Assembly: GCA_945882215.1 (NCBI GenBank)
Contig: CAMCWM010000002.1
Location: 1 to 64,000 of the forward strand
Direction of reading: 5' to 3'
Length of the DNA: 64,000 nucleotides
Source: Akkermansia muciniphila
GTDB taxonomy: Bacteria > Verrucomicrobiota > Verrucomicrobiia > Verrucomicrobiales > Verrucomicrobiaceae
Part shown: piece after piece, positions 1 to 7,099 of the stretch
Layout of the letters: each line of letters begins with the position of its first letter
How positions within the stretch are numbered: the stretch's first letter is position 1
Made by a program: the position numbers and the translations under genes
The notes under the pieces: model-generated
The model's database searches: none
Seen by the model: only the letters and a program-made list of their open reading frames with translations
What the model was told of the DNA's origin: nothing

Positions 1-116
1 ACCATGCTATTGTCCCCCGCTTCTTTCGAAGTCTCATCCCGTTGCCGGGCCAAGGTTAGGTTGTTGGAGTCATTCATTTTCAGCTAGAATGGCAGGGCTT
101 TCCCTGCGTTCATGAT

Positions 117-518
117 TCACGCCTCACGGCGCACCAAATTATCACAAACCAGAACCGCGGCCCCGGCGACAATGCCGGCGGGGAAGGTCTTGTCGTGGCT
201 GTTACGCAGTCCGAGCACCCAGCAGTAGTCGTTGCTGGATTTCTGGGCGTGGACTTCCATCAGGCCGAAGTAGCGCTGGCCTTCGTGAGACAGCGAGTGT
301 GCCTGCGTGCCGATGCGCAGGTTGGTGGTGGCGAGAGTCTTCTGCACCGTGGTGATAAGCTGATGATGAGGGATCGGACACCAACTGTCGGTATGACGTG
401 GAGTGGATACGGCGCGGACTTCGTCGAGGTCCACATGGGAGGCTCCGCAGTGAAGGGTGAGGTTCGGGCTGCGGCGTGTCGGGGTGACGGGGGCAAGTAG
501 ATCAAAATTGGCAATCAT
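117..518 (-). CDS. DUF932-like phage/plasmid-type protein, short (probably C-terminally truncated)
   Basis: ORF 133 aa; ...LGLRNSHDKTFPAGIVAGAAVLVCDNL resembles the DUF932 core motif, but the ORF stops five residues later. Confidence 0.5.
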   Translation of the reverse strand: MIANFDLLAPVTPTRRSPNLTLHCGASHVDLDEVRAVSTPRHTDSWCPIPHHQLITTVQKTLATTNLRIGTQAHSLSHEGQRYFGLMEVHAQKSSNDYCWVLGLRNSHDKTFPAGIVAGAAVLVCDNLVRREA

Positions 519-545
519 AGTCGTGTGTTCCTTTCTGGAATGAAA

Positions 546-580
546 AAGGGCCGGACACGCAGCGTGCGCATCCGGCCCTG
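546..580 (-). promoter_or_regulatory. intercistronic hairpin + U-tract in leader of the DUF932-like gene
   Basis: GGGCCGGA (548-555) / TCCGGCCC (571-578), minus strand followed by CTTTTTCATTC and GAAAGGA before ATG. Confidence 0.6.
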
Positions 581-598
581 GGTTGAGTGTGTGTTCGG

Positions 599-2035
599 TT
601 ACAGCTTGAGGCCTTGGAGCGTGCGTAATGTGTAGCGCACCGAGTTGAACTCCTTGCTGCTGGTCTTGTGTTCGCGGTGGATGGACTTCAGCTTCAACGA
701 CAGGTCACGCAGGAGGTTGAACCCATCGGTGAACTTGTCCCGGATTTGCAGGGTCAGGTCGATGGCTTCTTCGAGGGCGGATTTGCTGTCGTTGGCGGTT
801 GGTCCTTCAGAGTTTGGAGTCGTGATCATAGGTGTGGTGGGTTGGGGTGGTGTTGGAGGTGGCACTGGCCGGGAAGGCGGCAGAGTCACTGGAGCGGGGG
901 CTGGTTTTGCCGCCTCTTGCGGAGAACCCTCCACAGCGCGCAGTTGCATCACGATCATCTGCCGTCCTTGGCTGTGGAAGCGCAGAGGGGCGGCCTGATC
1001 CATGAGGCTGATGGTGTTGAGACCGTAGTGCAGTGCTTTGATGAGCAGCTTGCGGTTGACGAAGATCGTGATCTCCGGGCCAGTGGCTTGAACATCAGGC
1101 ACTGGCACGCGCAGCCAGGGTTCGGCATGACTGTCTTTGCCGAGCAGCAGGAACTGCCCCTGCCGCCATTCCAGTCCGATGCAGAACAACCGCTCATCGT
1201 GACAGGGCATGCGCTGGATGAGCCGGATGAGCGTGTCCAGTTTGGCCGGGGCGATGGTGATATGGGTTTTGGCAGCATTGGGATTGGGGATGGTGACGCG
1301 CCAGTCAGGATAGTTGCCTTCGATCTGTTTGGCGATGAACCGCCAGCGGCGGCTGCTGAGCTGGACGTGTTTATCATCCGCCTTGAACTGCCATTCACCG
1401 TCCGCGTTGAACTCCCTCCAGCCGAGGAACTTGTGGTTCGGAAGGATGAGGGAGTGTTTCAGCGGCAGCGCGAACGAGTTCGCGCTGTACAGATGCTTGC
1501 CATCCGTGCCGACGATGTAGTTGGCCTTGGGATTGCAAGTGTCGATGAACGTGCCGTTGAGTACGTAACGGCTGCTGTCGATGCTGTCGCAGTCCATCGC
1601 TTCGAGGATCGATTCCCGAACCGCGGCGGGCAGCGGGACAGCGTCTGCCTGGAGGCGCGGTGTCACGGGAAACTCTTCCGGTGCCACGAAGGTCAGCTTC
1701 GATTCGCCAAACTCGTTTCCCAAAGGGAAGCGGATGATGCTGGCTTCAGGACTGGCCTCGACTTCGATGGTCTCGCCCCGGCCGCAGTTTTTAACGACTT
1801 GAGCGAGCTGATCATAAGGAAGCAGCATGGTGGCAGGCGGGCCTGCGGCGGGGTGTTCGAGGCGCATGGTGACGAAGCGGTCGAGATCGGTGCCGGTCAA
1901 GGCGATCCAACCGTCAGCCGTGCGTTCGACTTTGAGGTGATGCAGGACCGGGAGAGTGGCTTTGGCGTTGATCACTTTGCCGAGTCCTGCGAGCGCGGAC
2001 TTCAGTTCCGCGACGGGGAGTGTGATGGGTTGCAT
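599..2035 (-). CDS. DNA polymerase III beta sliding-clamp homolog with C-terminal extension
   Basis: MQPITLPVAELKSALAGLGKVINAKATLPVLHHLKVERTADGWIALTGTDLDRFVTMRL resembles the DnaN N-terminal region; Pro-rich linker and ~70 aa helical tail added. Start placed at internal Met (2035). Confidence 0.75.
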   Translation of the reverse strand: MQPITLPVAELKSALAGLGKVINAKATLPVLHHLKVERTADGWIALTGTDLDRFVTMRLEHPAAGPPATMLLPYDQLAQVVKNCGRGETIEVEASPEASIIRFPLGNEFGESKLTFVAPEEFPVTPRLQADAVPLPAAVRESILEAMDCDSIDSSRYVLNGTFIDTCNPKANYIVGTDGKHLYSANSFALPLKHSLILPNHKFLGWREFNADGEWQFKADDKHVQLSSRRWRFIAKQIEGNYPDWRVTIPNPNAAKTHITIAPAKLDTLIRLIQRMPCHDERLFCIGLEWRQGQFLLLGKDSHAEPWLRVPVPDVQATGPEITIFVNRKLLIKALHYGLNTISLMDQAAPLRFHSQGRQMIVMQLRAVEGSPQEAAKPAPAPVTLPPSRPVPPPTPPQPTTPMITTPNSEGPTANDSKSALEEAIDLTLQIRDKFTDGFNLLRDLSLKLKSIHREHKTSSKEFNSVRYTLRTLQGLKL

Positions 2036-2059
2036 AAGAGGATATGGGGTGAACGCCAG

Positions 2060-2091
2060 CAGCCCATGCACCAATGAAGGCGCATGGGCTG
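2060..2091 (-). promoter_or_regulatory. hairpin in leader of DnaN-like gene
   Basis: perfect 10-bp stem CAGCCCATGC (2060-2069)/GCATGGGCTG (2082-2091). Confidence 0.5.
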
Positions 2092-2109
2092 GCAGCGTGG
2101 TTGGGTTGG

Positions 2110-3177
2110 CTAGGCGGCTGCCTGCATCTCCTCAGCTTTGTATTTGAGCTGGGTGGTGATGCATTCAGCAGCGCGGATGTCCTCACGCGGTCCGAGGTAC
2201 ACTGGCTGGTAGATGGAGCCGGATTCTCGAAACGCGTAGAGGTAGCGGCATTCCACGACGGCTCCGGGGGATGGAATGTCGTGGTTGGATGGGATGGTGA
2301 CGTTGCCAGCAGGGCGCACTTTTTCGTCCTCAAACAAGATCAAGGCGACGCTGCGCTTGTTGTTCGCTTTGGCGACGATAAACGAGGCTGTCTCATAGAA
2401 CTTATGCTTGAGCTGGGTGCCGCCGGAGTTGGGACGACCGGCGATGTAAGGAGCGTCGCTGTGTTTGAAGACAACACCCTCGGCATGGCGCTTCCTGAGT
2501 TGATGGAAGTGCTGTTGTTTCTTCGCCGTGGTGCAGTGGCTTGCCACCAGTTCGATGTGCCGATGCTGGAACGAGGCCAGGAGGTTCATCAAGTGCAGGG
2601 AGCGTTCGCCACAGCGCCGGCCCCGGATGTCATCGTCGGCGATGAACAGGAGATCGAAGGCATGCAGGGTGTCACCAATGGCCTCACCATCCATGAGGAA
2701 ATCCCCAGCACATGCCGAAGCTTCCGCGATGAGGGGTGCTGGCAGCGCGACGGTGAGTCCCAGGCGGTTGATGCCGGTGATGGTGTCGCCCTGCTTGTGG
2801 ATGAGCAGTCGTCGGCCATCCTTCTTCTCCTGCATCCAGTAGGCAGGATCGTGGATGAGCTTTTCCAATTCGTGTGTCTCCACCGGGTTCAACAACTGCG
2901 GCAGAATGCCGGAGCGGACCTTGTCGGTGTGCTGGAGCGGAGCGCTGGCTTCGCCAGCGTGGTAGCCCTTGGCGGTCTTCTCCCGGATGAGCTTGTCGTA
3001 GATGGCTTTGGCGGTCTGATATGCGACCGGCATTGGCGTCTTGCTGCCGGTGTTGAGCGTGGAGCCGCGACGACCATAGGCGAAGTGCACCATGAAGCCG
3101 GCATCCTTGGGTTGGATGCTGGCCTGATACACTTTGTCGGAGGGGCCTTCGCGGAAGTACAGGGTGATGCTTTCCAT
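2110..3177 (-). CDS. WGR domain fused to ATP-dependent DNA ligase
   Basis: N-terminal WGR (YFREGPSDKVYQ...YGRRG); ligase motif I KKDGRR, III FLMDGEAIGDTLHAFDLLF, IV EGVVFKHSDAPYIAGRP, V KHKFYETASFIV. Confidence 0.85.
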   Translation of the reverse strand: MESITLYFREGPSDKVYQASIQPKDAGFMVHFAYGRRGSTLNTGSKTPMPVAYQTAKAIYDKLIREKTAKGYHAGEASAPLQHTDKVRSGILPQLLNPVETHELEKLIHDPAYWMQEKKDGRRLLIHKQGDTITGINRLGLTVALPAPLIAEASACAGDFLMDGEAIGDTLHAFDLLFIADDDIRGRRCGERSLHLMNLLASFQHRHIELVASHCTTAKKQQHFHQLRKRHAEGVVFKHSDAPYIAGRPNSGGTQLKHKFYETASFIVAKANNKRSVALILFEDEKVRPAGNVTIPSNHDIPSPGAVVECRYLYAFRESGSIYQPVYLGPREDIRAAECITTQLKYKAEEMQAAA

Positions 3178-3205
3178 GAGTTGAATGTCCTTTCGTGAAT
3201 GCAAA

Positions 3206-3237
3206 AGAGCCGGATGACCTTGCGATCATCCGGCTCT
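3206..3237 (-). promoter_or_regulatory. hairpin + U-tract in leader of WGR-ligase gene
   Basis: perfect 12-bp stem AGAGCCGGATGA/TCATCCGGCTCT, minus strand followed by TTTTGCATTCACGAAAGGA. Confidence 0.65.
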
Positions 3238-3279
3238 GCTGGGGTTGAGATGTTGGGGTGTGGCTTGAGAGCCGTCGTG

Positions 3280-3798
3280 TTAGTAGTTGTTGTAGGGATC
3301 GCGGCGTTGTTGTTGCTGTTGGCGCATGCGCATGACGAGGATCGAGCGGCCGATGGAGACCAACCCGGCAATGAGGCCGATGACCAGCATGACCGAGAGC
3401 GGTACCAACACGAGGTTGGAGGTCGTCTTGGTGATCAGGTCGATCCAGACGTTGAACTGCTTCAAAGCCAGCGTGACCAGCGGCGCCACCAGCAAGGAGG
3501 GCACCGCCAGCCCGAAGGCCAGCCGCAGGTTGAACTTGAACCACTCTCTGAGCGTTCCCTGCGGTGAGAGCCAGTATTCGAACCGGCGGCAGGTGTAGCT
3601 GATGGTCTCTACGGAGCGTTCAATGGCGCTCAACTGCGGCAGGTCTTGATCAACCTCCGGTTCGGGCAACGGTTCAGGCTGCCATCGACGGATGACGATC
3701 TGGCGCATCTGCTTCGCCCAGGTGGTGGTGGGCACCGTTGGCACCTGCCGATTGAGTGGTGGTTGGGATGGTTCGTCCCAGTCTTCTTGTGGCATCAT
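3280..3798 (-). CDS. hypothetical membrane protein (two predicted TM segments)
   Basis: ORF continuing to 3280; hydrophobic segments FGLAVPSLLVAPLVTLAL and LVLVPLSVMLVIGLIAGLV; start at MMPQEDW. Confidence 0.55.
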   Translation of the reverse strand: MMPQEDWDEPSQPPLNRQVPTVPTTTWAKQMRQIVIRRWQPEPLPEPEVDQDLPQLSAIERSVETISYTCRRFEYWLSPQGTLREWFKFNLRLAFGLAVPSLLVAPLVTLALKQFNVWIDLITKTTSNLVLVPLSVMLVIGLIAGLVSIGRSILVMRMRQQQQQRRDPYNNY

Positions 3799-4054
3799 AG
3801 TGTTGACGTGTTTTGGCCCCGAGGGCCGTTCCGATGACAAACAACAACACGCAGCCCAGCGCGAGAGTGCCGGTGGCAACTTCCCAGCGGTTGGTGGTGG
3901 CGTGTTGTTCCGATATTTGCTCTTCGAGCTTGGTGATCTTGGCGCGGTACTCCGGACCTAGATCCGGCGGTGGGGGTGGCGGATCTTTGAAGAACCAGCC
4001 TGCATAGGCCGCCGGTGAGAGCAGCAGGCAGGCAACGAGGATGAGATGTTTCAT
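3674..4054 (-). CDS. small secreted/membrane protein with signal peptide, Pro stretch, coiled coil and TM
   Basis: MKHLILVACLLLSPAAYAGWFFKDPPPPPPDLGPEYRAKITKLEEQI...GTLALGCVLLFVIGTAL; overlaps the next gene out of frame. Confidence 0.5.
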   Translation of the reverse strand: MKHLILVACLLLSPAAYAGWFFKDPPPPPPDLGPEYRAKITKLEEQISEQHATTNRWEVATGTLALGCVLLFVIGTALGAKTRQHYDATRRLGRTIPTTTQSAGANGAHHHLGEADAPDRHPSMAA

Positions 4055-4087
4055 AAATGAGGGTGGGTGATGGGTTGAGAGGCGGGA

Positions 4088-4906
4088 TTAATGCCATAGG
4101 CGGCATTCGTTGATGAACTCGCAGCTTGAGCAGTGCATCCCAGGCGAAGGGATGAAGTGCTGGCGCTGGAGGCCGTCGAGGTAGGCTTCCATTTGCTTGA
4201 ACAGCCGTGTTTGCTGTTGAGGGCTCATGGAAGGCATCAAGGTGATCACGATCTTGGGGTTCTTGAGTTTGACCAGATGATGGAGCTGGATGCCGGCCTC
4301 GTTGCCGCCGGTGTTGTGGCGGTAGAGGATGGCGTAGCTGCTGGTCTGGATCTCGTTGGTGTGAGCGACCTTTTCTGCATTGGGGGTGCTGGCGCTGGTC
4401 TTGTAGTCGATGACCTGGCGGCGTTGAACCAGATCAAGGATGCCGATCAATCGCGGTAAACCATGGCGGGCCAGGTCAGCTTCAACCGGGACTTCCACGG
4501 CATCAGGTTTGACGTCTGCCGGGAGGTGGCTCTCGCGCAGGTAGGTGTCGAGCAGACGCCAGCCGGTGGTTTTCTCGTCCTCCTCCTCCCCGGCCTTCCA
4601 GGACACTGTGCCTTCTTCGGTATCCGCCCAGGCTGCTGTATAGGCATCGTGAGCCTGTTTGAGCGAGAGCGGTTGTTGCAGCCAGCGTGCCTTGTTCCAG
4701 GCCTTCAACACGGCGTGAACCGCATTGCCGAGATGGAGTGCGGGCGTTTTGGCTTTCTTGAGCCTGAGCACGTAGCGGAAGAAGAACTTCAACCGGCATT
4801 GCAGGAACAGGGACAGCCGTGAGGCCGAGACCTTTTCCTGCAAGCCGGCGATGATGTCTTCCATGCTGGGCTCAGTTTGGGGTGGAGCTTCAGCGACGAT
4901 GTTCAT
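4088..4906 (-). CDS. PD-(D/E)XK nuclease, RecB/AddB/Cas4-like, with putative Fe-S cysteines
   Basis: SASRLSLFLQCRLKFFFRYV..., VIDYKTS motif, C-terminal CSSCEFINEC (Cx2Cx5C) plus upstream Cys. Confidence 0.8.
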   Translation of the reverse strand: MNIVAEAPPQTEPSMEDIIAGLQEKVSASRLSLFLQCRLKFFFRYVLRLKKAKTPALHLGNAVHAVLKAWNKARWLQQPLSLKQAHDAYTAAWADTEEGTVSWKAGEEEDEKTTGWRLLDTYLRESHLPADVKPDAVEVPVEADLARHGLPRLIGILDLVQRRQVIDYKTSASTPNAEKVAHTNEIQTSSYAILYRHNTGGNEAGIQLHHLVKLKNPKIVITLMPSMSPQQQTRLFKQMEAYLDGLQRQHFIPSPGMHCSSCEFINECRLWH

Positions 4907-5412
4907 GCTGCTTGGGAGGCTTGATGTTGTGATTGCCAGCGGTTCTGGCGGGCGGGTTTGCCGGCTTTGACCAGCAGGTCCTCGATGAGCTGCGAAGCCT
5001 GCATCTTGTTGAGCTGCTTCACATCCATGTGGAACAACATCTGGGAGAGGTTTTCCGCCTCATCCTTGTCCATCTTGTTGTCGTGGATGATGCGCTGGAT
5101 GAACGATTGCTGGCCGACGGTGCAGTTCCAGCGCTCGTTCTTGATCTGATAGATGCGGCCGTTGCCATTGCTGTGCCCGCTGCCGTTGCTGTGACCATTG
5201 CGATTGCTCTGATCGTTGGCTTGGGGAACGAAGCCTGGGTGTTGGATTTCCTGGTCAACGGCGTGCTGCAGCAGCGCGTAAAGCTGCTGAACTTCCGCTT
5301 GGACCTGGGTGATGTCGGTGAGTTCGATCTCGACCGACGCGCTGAAGCTGTGGCTGCTGTATTGCGGCAGGCCGAGTTTTTTGCTGTAGTTGGCGCTGAG
5401 TTTGATGGCCAT
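4903..5412 (-). CDS. hypothetical mobile-element protein with NGHSNGSG-type linker
   Basis: ORF with stop/start overlap (ATGA) with the nuclease gene; RBS-like AGGAGGA upstream of ATG. Confidence 0.6.
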   Translation of the reverse strand: MAIKLSANYSKKLGLPQYSSHSFSASVEIELTDITQVQAEVQQLYALLQHAVDQEIQHPGFVPQANDQSNRNGHSNGSGHSNGNGRIYQIKNERWNCTVGQQSFIQRIIHDNKMDKDEAENLSQMLFHMDVKQLNKMQASQLIEDLLVKAGKPARQNRWQSQHQASQAA

Positions 5413-5491
5413 GATGATGTCCTCCTTGGGATGTGTGTTGGATGTGGTGTGGATTGACGTGAGCAGCCGTCACGAAGCCCGCCAACAAAAC

Positions 5492-5520
5492 ACCCGGCCC
5501 TCGTTAGAGAGACCGGGCGT
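5492..5520 (-). terminator. possible hairpin terminator/leader
   Basis: CCCGG...CCGGG with GTGTTTTGTT on the minus strand. Confidence 0.35.
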
Positions 5521-5554
5521 AAGGTTGGCAGGAAGGCAGTGGCGGCGTGGTGGA

Positions 5555-5767
5555 CTAGCGGGTGGTGCCAGCCTCTTGAGTGCGGCCCTGAGCCGGGACG
5601 CTCATCTGCGCGGTCGCGATGTTCCAAGCCTCGGTGCCGTGCAGGCAGGAGGTGAGGAGTTCGTTGACCAGCCGTGTCATGGGCCGGCGCAGCCGCCGGC
5701 GTTCATGGTACAGAGCGCAGATGATGACCCGGTCGATGCAGGGCGAATAATGGGTTCGCCTTGGCAT
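5555..5767 (-). CDS. small hypothetical protein
   Basis: 70 aa ORF collinear with the element genes; weak support. Confidence 0.35.
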   Translation of the reverse strand: MPRRTHYSPCIDRVIICALYHERRRLRRPMTRLVNELLTSCLHGTEAWNIATAQMSVPAQGRTQEAGTTR

Positions 5768-6031
5768 GATGGTGGATGAAAGCAGCCGGGAATAAACCCT
5801 AGCGTCTCAAATTCCTATAACGCGGATGGGTGGGAAATTGCAGGCGTCTGCACGAGCCAGAAGGCAATTTTGAGCCATGAGAAAGAATGCACGCTCAAGC
5901 AACCCACGGCACCGAACGTAGATGCACACAGCGGCGAAGTTTGAGGTAGCGGGATCATGCCAAAAAATGGCTGAGAAATGGCAGACGAAAATATATTAAC
6001 ATCCAATCTTTCTGCAATATTTTCCACGTAA

Positions 6032-6050
6032 CTCTTTGAACCTCAAAGAG
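6032..6050. repeat. perfect inverted repeat abutting tRNA 3' remnant
   Basis: CTCTTTGA-ACC-TCAAAGAG, ends one base before TGG (CCA complement). Confidence 0.7.
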
Positions 6051-6097
6051 TGGTGCTCGGGAAGGGACTCGAACCCTTAAGCCTTTCGGCACAAGAT
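6051..6097 (-). other. tRNA 3'-end remnant (class II tRNA, probably Leu or Ser), candidate att site
   Basis: minus strand ATCTTGTGCCGAAAGGCTTAAGGGTTCGAGTCCCTTCCCGAGCACCA: variable-arm hairpin GCC-GAAA-GGC, T-arm AAGGG-TTCGAGT-CCCTT, acceptor 3' strand plus CCA; the 5' half is absent. Confidence 0.75.
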
Positions 6098-7099
6098 CCC
6101 GCGTCGTGGACCGAGCGCTTCAACAGCCAGGGACCAGAATGGCAGGCCCCCGGCATCGGCGAGACCTTGGAACGCAATCCCGACGGCAAAAAGCCCGTCA
6201 TGGGCGGCAACACCTTCGTCATCGTGGCGGCGGATGGCAATGACATGGTGCATTCTGATGGCAAAACGGCCGCGAAGGCATGCGAACTCATCGCGAAGCA
6301 CTCGAAGGAACCGTTTTTTCTCGCTGTCGGCTACGTGCGACCGCATGTGCCCTTCGTCGCGCCGAAGAGGTATTTCAACCTGTATCCGTGGGAGCAGATG
6401 ACGCTGCCTGAGAAGGTGCCCGGTGATTGGGACGACATCCCGAAGCCCGGCATCAACTACAAGACCAGCGTGAACATGCAGATGGACGTCACACGGCAAA
6501 AGAAAGCCGTCTCCGGCTACTATGCCGCCGTGAGCTTCATGGACGCGCAAGTCGGCAAGGTGCTCGATGCGCTCGAAAAATCCGGCCAGGCTGACAACAC
6601 CATCATCATCTTCACCAGCGACCACGGCTTCCACCTCGGCGAGCACGATTTCTGGGCTAAAGTCAGCCTGCACGACGAATCAGCCCGCGTACCGCTCATC
6701 ATCAGCGTGCCCGGCAAAAAGCCCGGCGTGAGCGATTCGCTCGTCGAACTGCTCGACCTCTACCCCACCACCGCGAAGCTCTGCGGTCTCGACGTTCCCG
6801 CGCGACTGCAGGGCAAGGACATCGGCCCCATCCTCGACGATCCGCAGGCCAAAGTGCACGACACCGTCTTCAGCGTCGCCGGCACGAGCAAGGGCCTCAT
6901 GCTGCGCGACGAGCGCTGGGTCTTCATTCAATACACTGAAGACTCATCAAAAGGCATGGAGCTCTTCGACATGCACAACGATCCGAAACAGCTCACTAAC
7001 CTCGCTTCATCACCCGACCACGTTTCCCGTGTCGAGGAGTGGAAAGCGAAGATCACCGCTAAATTGTTGGCGATACGCGCGAACGACCTCGGCAACTGA
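6095..7099 (+). pseudogene. sulfatase, 5' truncated (iduronate-2-sulfatase-like)
   Basis: sulfatase homology begins at DPASWTERFNSQGPEW...; IIIFTSDHGFHLGEHDFWAK present; N-terminal catalytic Cys region missing. Confidence 0.8.

Follow-up and report, generated by a model that had tools for sequence, protein, structure and literature searches.

A clamp, ligase and nuclease gene cassette at the attachment end of tRNA-integrating islands in Verrucomicrobiota

We analyzed a window of 64,000 nucleotides from a metagenome-assembled genome of Akkermansia muciniphila (6.2 Mb, 391 contigs). Since the window comprises bases 1-64000 of contig C2 (88,903 bp), it starts at a contig end of the assembly; our subject is a cassette of eight genes close to this end. 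A first-pass annotation had listed eight minus-strand open reading frames (ORFs) at 117-5767 and had assigned them to a DnaN paralog, a ligase fused to a WGR domain, a nuclease, a DUF932 relative, two membrane proteins and two orphan proteins. All eight were present at these coordinates, and family scans and orthologues bore out the set of products (Table 1). Three starts were corrected from conserved alignments (clamp, 2035, 478 aa; ligase, 3177, 355 aa; second membrane protein, 3735, 151 aa). All eight genes are protein-coding and under purifying selection, as the ratio of nonsynonymous to synonymous substitution rates (dN/dS) against orthologous elements was 0.06-0.20, with one comparison of the orphan protein c4 at 0.48. 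Therefore we regard these ORFs as real genes. Plus-strand ORFs that overlap the cassette, for example 2074-3198, are most likely antisense by-products.

Table 1. Features of the cassette and of the adjoining junction in the window.
Feature	Position	Strand	Evidence
Orphan 70-aa protein, first cassette gene	5555..5767	-	46-87% identical homologues in the same place in other elements; dN/dS 0.18-0.20
c4, 169 aa	4903..5412	-	Conserved to Planctomycetota; AlphaFold2; no family match
PDDEXK_1 nuclease, RecB/AddB/Cas4 type, four conserved cysteines	4088..4906	-	Pfam 6e-32; invariant residues
Small membrane protein, signal-like N-terminus	3674..4054	-	Kept in place in relatives; dN/dS 0.19
Membrane protein c5, 151 aa	3280..3735	-	In-place homologues 44-93% identical; dN/dS 0.11-0.17
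ATP-dependent DNA ligase, N-terminal WGR domain, 355 aa	2110..3177	-	Pfam; motifs conserved in 13 homologues
Sliding clamp (DnaN) paralog, 478 aa, ~95-aa C-terminal extension	599..2035	-	phrog_947 2e-26; PDB clamps
DUF932-family protein, broken: residues 1-128 of about 259	117..518	-	71-95% identity to intact homologues, residues 1-128 only
Paired 11-bp repeats, probable integrase arm site	5963..5986	-	20/24 identical to C93 integrase-side arm (at most 16 in shuffles); same anatomy in three relatives' elements
Attachment core: tRNA-Leu 3' part, anticodon loop to 3' end	6050..6100	-	51 bp identical to intact tRNA-Leu(AAG), contig C170
Sulfatase gene, C-terminal half, interrupted by element	6095..7099	+	87% DNA identity to G046 frame; Pfam Sulfatase

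The cassette borders on the end of an integrated element. The tRNA-Leu(AAG) gene whose 3' part is repeated at 6050-6100 stands intact on contig C170 of the same genome, and C170 carries no element. The sulfatase gene of the window lacks its N-terminus, and its homology to an intact 533-codon frame in a relative (G046) begins exactly at 6095, at the sequence GATCC. On contig C93 we found the N-terminal half of the sulfatase, which ends at the same GATCC; the sequence then runs on as TTAGTCT, from the opposite side of the anticodon loop of the tRNA. An integrase gene (PF00589) lies 340 bp from this junction, followed by a DUF3987 gene. The shared GATCC (6095-6099) is presumably the crossover. 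As judged from sequence, the two junctions bear the marks of a site-specific insertion into a secondary site: the present island entered the sulfatase gene at a 5-bp GATCC match and split it between C93 and the window contig.

Further, we compared the paired 11-bp repeats at the two ends. In four elements the cassette-side pair stands 49-64 bp away from the core, and the pair of the integrase arm 187-217 bp away from the start of the integrase. In the window element and in three relatives, the cassette arm and the integrase arm were identical at 20-24 of 24 positions, while shuffles gave at most 17. These repeats look like integrase arm sites, which we consider probable. Since they match, the end in the window and that on C93 are parts of a single attachment site (attP). 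We rejected the idea that the assembly is chimeric at the tRNA repeat, because at GATCC each half of the sulfatase supplies what the other lacks, the repeats of the two arms match and the anatomy is found again in relatives. The first-pass annotation was right that only one end of a mobile element was visible in the window; the missing integrase end is located on C93.

In relatives a distance of 0.2-3.2 kb separates the start of the cassette from a tRNA 3' end; the intact tRNA that it follows is tRNA-Tyr at three loci, tRNA-Leu(TAG) at two and tRNA-Leu(CAA) at one. In the single-contig genome G061 an exact 60-bp tRNA repeat (anticodon arm to 3' end) recurs 88.8 kb away, and in G059 (G059b) an exact repeat of 67 bp, with the same limits, recurs 71 kb away. 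In both, a PF00589 tyrosine integrase lies 338-369 bp inside the far repeat (attR), and the cassette is at the opposite end. A third element, in G034, measures about 58 kb and has imperfect repeats. Of the features that define a tRNA island, flanking tRNA 3' direct repeats are present in G061 and G059b, the window cassette having a single 51-bp copy, and a tyrosine integrase by the attachment site is present on C93 and in G059b and G061. We are nearly certain of this anatomy. Once circular, the island would have attP between its integrase and its cassette, which point away from each other, and integration into a tRNA gene would then place the cassette beside the tRNA and the integrase beside the far repeat. 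On contig C9 of G034 the integrase, a tRNA-Tyr 3' fragment and the cassette follow in sequence, as would be expected of a tandem junction. On contig C7 of G059 (L043/L044/L055-L057), the 70-aa gene occurs a second time past the far repeat that bounds the 71-kb island, together with an imperfect tRNA 3' copy, the third there, which suggests remnants of an earlier tandem element.

We wanted to know how far the cassette is conserved. Of 68 genomes of the family, 32 have the WGR-ligase, in up to 4 copies per genome (the G032 match covers the WGR part only). A scan for the ligase in one genome per species (85,462 species) gave 80 loci. The relatives recovered through the ligase were of Verrucomicrobiaceae/Prosthecobacter type, and a cultured relative, the Brevifollis gellanilyticus strain of L084, has the cassette. 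The common order around ten copies was 70-aa orphan, c4, nuclease, small membrane protein, c5, ligase, clamp, DUF932. When the loci of close relatives were restricted to those with 4 kb of flank or more, c4 and the clamp were each present in 17/17, DUF932 in 16/17 and the nuclease in 15/17. Pairwise identities of the five main proteins were correlated (r 0.66-0.91, Mantel p<=0.004); therefore these proteins travel together. G055 has two cassettes whose ligases are 64% identical to each other, and one of them is 97% identical to the ligase of another species, G053. The first-pass annotation would have been contradicted had the clamp, ligase and nuclease genes never co-occurred elsewhere; they co-occur in order in many genomes, and this, together with the integrase end on C93, supports its placing of the cassette on a mobile element.

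The constancy of the cassette also bears on the possibility that it is a captured host DNA-repair operon and mere cargo. Clamp and ligase are housekeeping functions and the cassette is integrated in the chromosome, as such an operon would be. However, the cassette is the only constant part of the islands and is at the attachment end wherever that end could be mapped, its phylogeny crosses host lines, and the host has a DnaN of its own, a separate gene on contig C109. We consider a captured operon very improbable.

Other genes were observed next to the cassette in relatives. An operon of DUF3150, DUF1257, DUF2997, a small ORF and an AAA ATPase (IetA-like) was present at L102, L103, L105, L113 and L130 (e.g. 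L102:4794-9211); the DUF3150-DUF1257-DUF2997-AAA operon recurs in Akkermansiaceae and other Verrucomicrobiales, where it adjoins nuclease/ligase genes. A RadC-like gene (L104:9453-9899) and a full-length DUF932 gene (L104:12915-13895) stand beside the cassette in other Verrucomicrobia. Akkermansiaceae versions of the cassette likewise have RadC, DUF3150 and a complete DUF932 as additions. Both sets of neighbours point the same way, to a role in the DNA processing of the element.

We then considered the proteins one by one. The nuclease gave a Pfam PDDEXK_1 match of E=6e-32, and residues H64, D158, K169, C37, C259, C262 and C268 were invariant among the homologues aligned. The four-cysteine arrangement is what we take to be the AddB/Cas4 Fe-S pattern, and its invariance supports the proposed reading as an Fe-S nuclease. 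By its family and its conserved active-site residues the nuclease may be a candidate for the exonuclease of a Red/RecET-type module. Cas4-like PADLOC matches of this nuclease (1e-9), a match of the WGR domain to the candidate-system model WGR_XIII and real defence systems among the island cargo would suit a role in defence or counter-defence, in which the nuclease would attack or the repair set would protect against DNA attack by the host or a competing element. Yet the PADLOC matches reflect shared domains only, no complete defence-system architecture was matched, and the cassette is a fixed feature of the attachment end, outside the variable cargo, which makes such a role improbable.

The ligase was matched by DNA_ligase_A_M (E=1e-9) and WGR (E=6e-6) in Pfam. 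Its motif I (EK.DGRR, in agreement with the KxDGxR of ATP-dependent DNA ligases) and motifs III, IIIa, IV and V were invariant or nearly so among 13 homologues, in accordance with the annotated fusion of a nucleotidyltransferase with a WGR domain. The C-terminal QLKYK was considered as a clamp-binding motif, but it departs from the QLxLF consensus. WGR domains of PARPs bind 5'-phosphorylated breaks (PMC8190142), and the solved ligases nearest in a structure search include LigD and Lig4, which act in end joining. These observations speak for a DNA-end-joining module, in which the WGR domain would hold a broken or linear end, the nuclease trim it and the ligase seal it, either circularising an incoming linear island (for example, one packaged in a helper phage) or mending breaks without homology. 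However, the LigD and Lig4 matches reflect only the common catalytic core, the cassette genes yielded no Ku homologue, and end joining needs neither clamp nor DUF932. Therefore we regard end joining as unlikely, though the least unlikely of the three alternatives considered here.

Clamp and DUF932 were both weak in Pfam. The clamp matched phrog_947 (E=2e-26) across all three domains (5-365 of 368) and also aligned with PDB clamps, as expected of a three-domain DnaN fold. Its score was under the TIGR00663 equivalog cut-off, so we regard it as a paralog. The DUF932 gene of the window matches its 259-aa relatives over residues 1-128 and then runs into unrelated sequence up to the contig end. The sequence that replaces the gene after codon 128 (window 1-134) lies at the contig edge and was found nowhere else in the genome; having no second copy there, duplicated sequence was rejected as the cause of the break. 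An AlphaFold2 model of an intact homologue resembled viral DUF932 proteins with TM scores of 0.66 (named protein) and 0.74 (best, unnamed), while a fold search of the DUF932-type protein against PDB gave no significant match.

In the AlphaFold2 model of c4, a long beta hairpin with a helix is followed by a disordered linker rich in Gly and Asn and then by a C-terminal domain that is helical. No recognised annealing protein (Bet/RecT/Erf/Rad52) was identified for c4 in Pfam, PHROG and PDB searches, similarity to viral ERF was insignificant (E=8e-3, TM 0.27), and tblastn gave no relative among phage or plasmid records. Its adjacency to the nuclease and its linker make c4 our first choice for a partner of the nuclease that would bind or anneal single strands.

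We surveyed part of the island genes. The cargo between the cassette and integrase ends is unrelated from island to island. Genes examined in the G061 and G034 islands encode a sulfatase, an alginate lyase, an esterase, cytochromes, two-component sensors and autotransporter repeats, and the defence cargo of the islands includes type I restriction, GmrSD and a PDC-S37/Hhe-like protein. A D5_N/DUF5906 primase-helicase is close to the G061 integrase. In the G034 island (L202:10345-19998) the PDC-S37/Hhe-like protein adjoins the type I restriction system, and a PDC-M27C-like helicase is fused to planctomycete-type PSCyt1/PSD3 domains, a fusion that may be an artefact of gene calling or assembly. 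Relaxase PF03432, the sole relaxase family searched for, was absent from four cassette-bearing genomes, and an integrative conjugative element was rejected on this basis. Terminase PF03237 (Terminase_6N), the sole packaging family scanned, was absent from G059, G061 and G060 and was present in G034 only on contig C81, outside the examined elements; with none in the islands examined, a prophage appears less likely. No DNA polymerase was recognised in the surveyed part. The first-pass proposal of a self-contained replication, recombination or end-processing module would fit the gene content, but "self-contained" is probably too strong with no polymerase, PF03432 or PF03237 found in these searches.

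Taken together, the sequences show the cassette as the constant, attachment-site-proximal module of an integrative island with a tyrosine integrase and tRNA 3' targets, and we think it probable that it supplies the DNA processing of the element. Its role is most likely element-borne replication or recombination repair. The cassette would serve end processing, recombination and gap filling of the element's own DNA: the Fe-S nuclease would resect ends, c4 and perhaps DUF932 would bind or pair single strands, the clamp would recruit host polymerase for gap filling, and the WGR-ligase would seal nicks. The two membrane proteins may anchor the complex, which is the weakest step. Together with the DUF3987 or D5-type primase-helicase genes near the integrase, the cassette could act in replication, repair and cargo exchange of the excised or incoming island.

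Several observations weigh against this proposal. The middle of the window's own element is unassembled. Synteny across Verrucomicrobia and Planctomycetes, which the first-pass annotation had named as a check, held for c4, nuclease, ligase and DUF932 (c4 and nuclease in 5/6 Planctomycetota loci, DUF932 in 4/5) but not for the clamp, which was found in none of the Planctomycetota cassettes. At mycobacterial loci the ligase was the only cassette gene, and plasmid relatives of the ligase likewise lacked the others; therefore the ligase can act alone. Integrase and ligase co-occurred only modestly per genome (19 both, 12 ligase only, 13 integrase only, 24 neither; Fisher p=0.028), because other integrases serve too, as in G053, where the cassette lies within a tmRNA-associated element with a different integrase. 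Further, c4 had no Pfam, PHROG or PDB match and no significant fold match, the DUF932 family is without known activity, and the DNA-processing activity of the cassette proteins is deduced from their sequences.

The WGR-ligase family also has members on plasmids (including megaplasmids) of Variovorax, Rhodanobacter, Pseudomonas and mycobacteria and in the jumbo phage Tunturi_5. Unlike the cassette, the plasmid and phage ligases whose neighbourhoods were examined stand without the nuclease, clamp and DUF932 set. In Mycolicibacterium (L143, L145, L146, L147) a syntenic block of about 20 genes surrounds a WGR-ligase 47-49% identical to that of the window; this block is probably a plasmid or phage-like element.

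Islands that integrate into tRNA genes with a tyrosine recombinase are already known, and the cassette is what sets the present ones apart. Tycheposons (PMC10872708) and the helper-dependent "hitcher" elements (PMC11389934), like other tRNA islands, share with these islands the tRNA 3' target, the tyrosine recombinase and tens of kb of variable metabolic or defence cargo, with no conjugation or capsid genes seen so far. Unlike tycheposons and hitchers, our islands have Verrucomicrobiota hosts and a constant clamp-ligase-nuclease-DUF932 cassette at the tRNA end, a marker set that we did not find in the literature searched on these elements. Phage P4-type elements resemble these islands in having DUF3987 or D5-type genes near a terminal tyrosine integrase, but the present islands are much larger, their operon is different and no capsid-hijacking genes were recognised.

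The ssb-bet-exo recombination module of SXT/R391 integrative conjugative elements promotes hybrid elements in SXT (PMC3118119). Like it, the cassette is a mobile-element operon in which an exonuclease would stand beside proteins handling single-stranded DNA, both functions being predicted in our case. In contrast to it, the nuclease is of the Fe-S RecB/AddB type and not lambda-Exo/YqaJ, no Bet homologue was recognised, and a ligase and a clamp are added. The role of the cassette may thus be comparable to that of the SXT module (PMC3118119) and be carried out by different proteins. In the literature searched, no paper described the cassette, WGR-ligases on plasmids or DUF932 with DUF3150. A broader reading, which we offer tentatively and hold to be somewhat doubtful, is an undescribed ancient integrative family of Verrucomicrobiota and Planctomycetota, whose hallmark would be an Fe-S nuclease/c4/WGR-ligase/clamp/DUF932 complex for repair and replication, encoded by the element and acting as a recombination pathway distinct from Red, RecET and Ku/LigD end joining.

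In summary, the marker cassette and the attachment-site anatomy provide a means of finding widespread large cargo islands in Verrucomicrobia, which bring defence systems and carbohydrate-degradation or redox genes. The cassette itself is proposed to be a DNA repair module of several proteins, among them a clamp specific to the mobile element, and it gives three little-understood families, DUF932, the WGR-ligases and c4, a common context.

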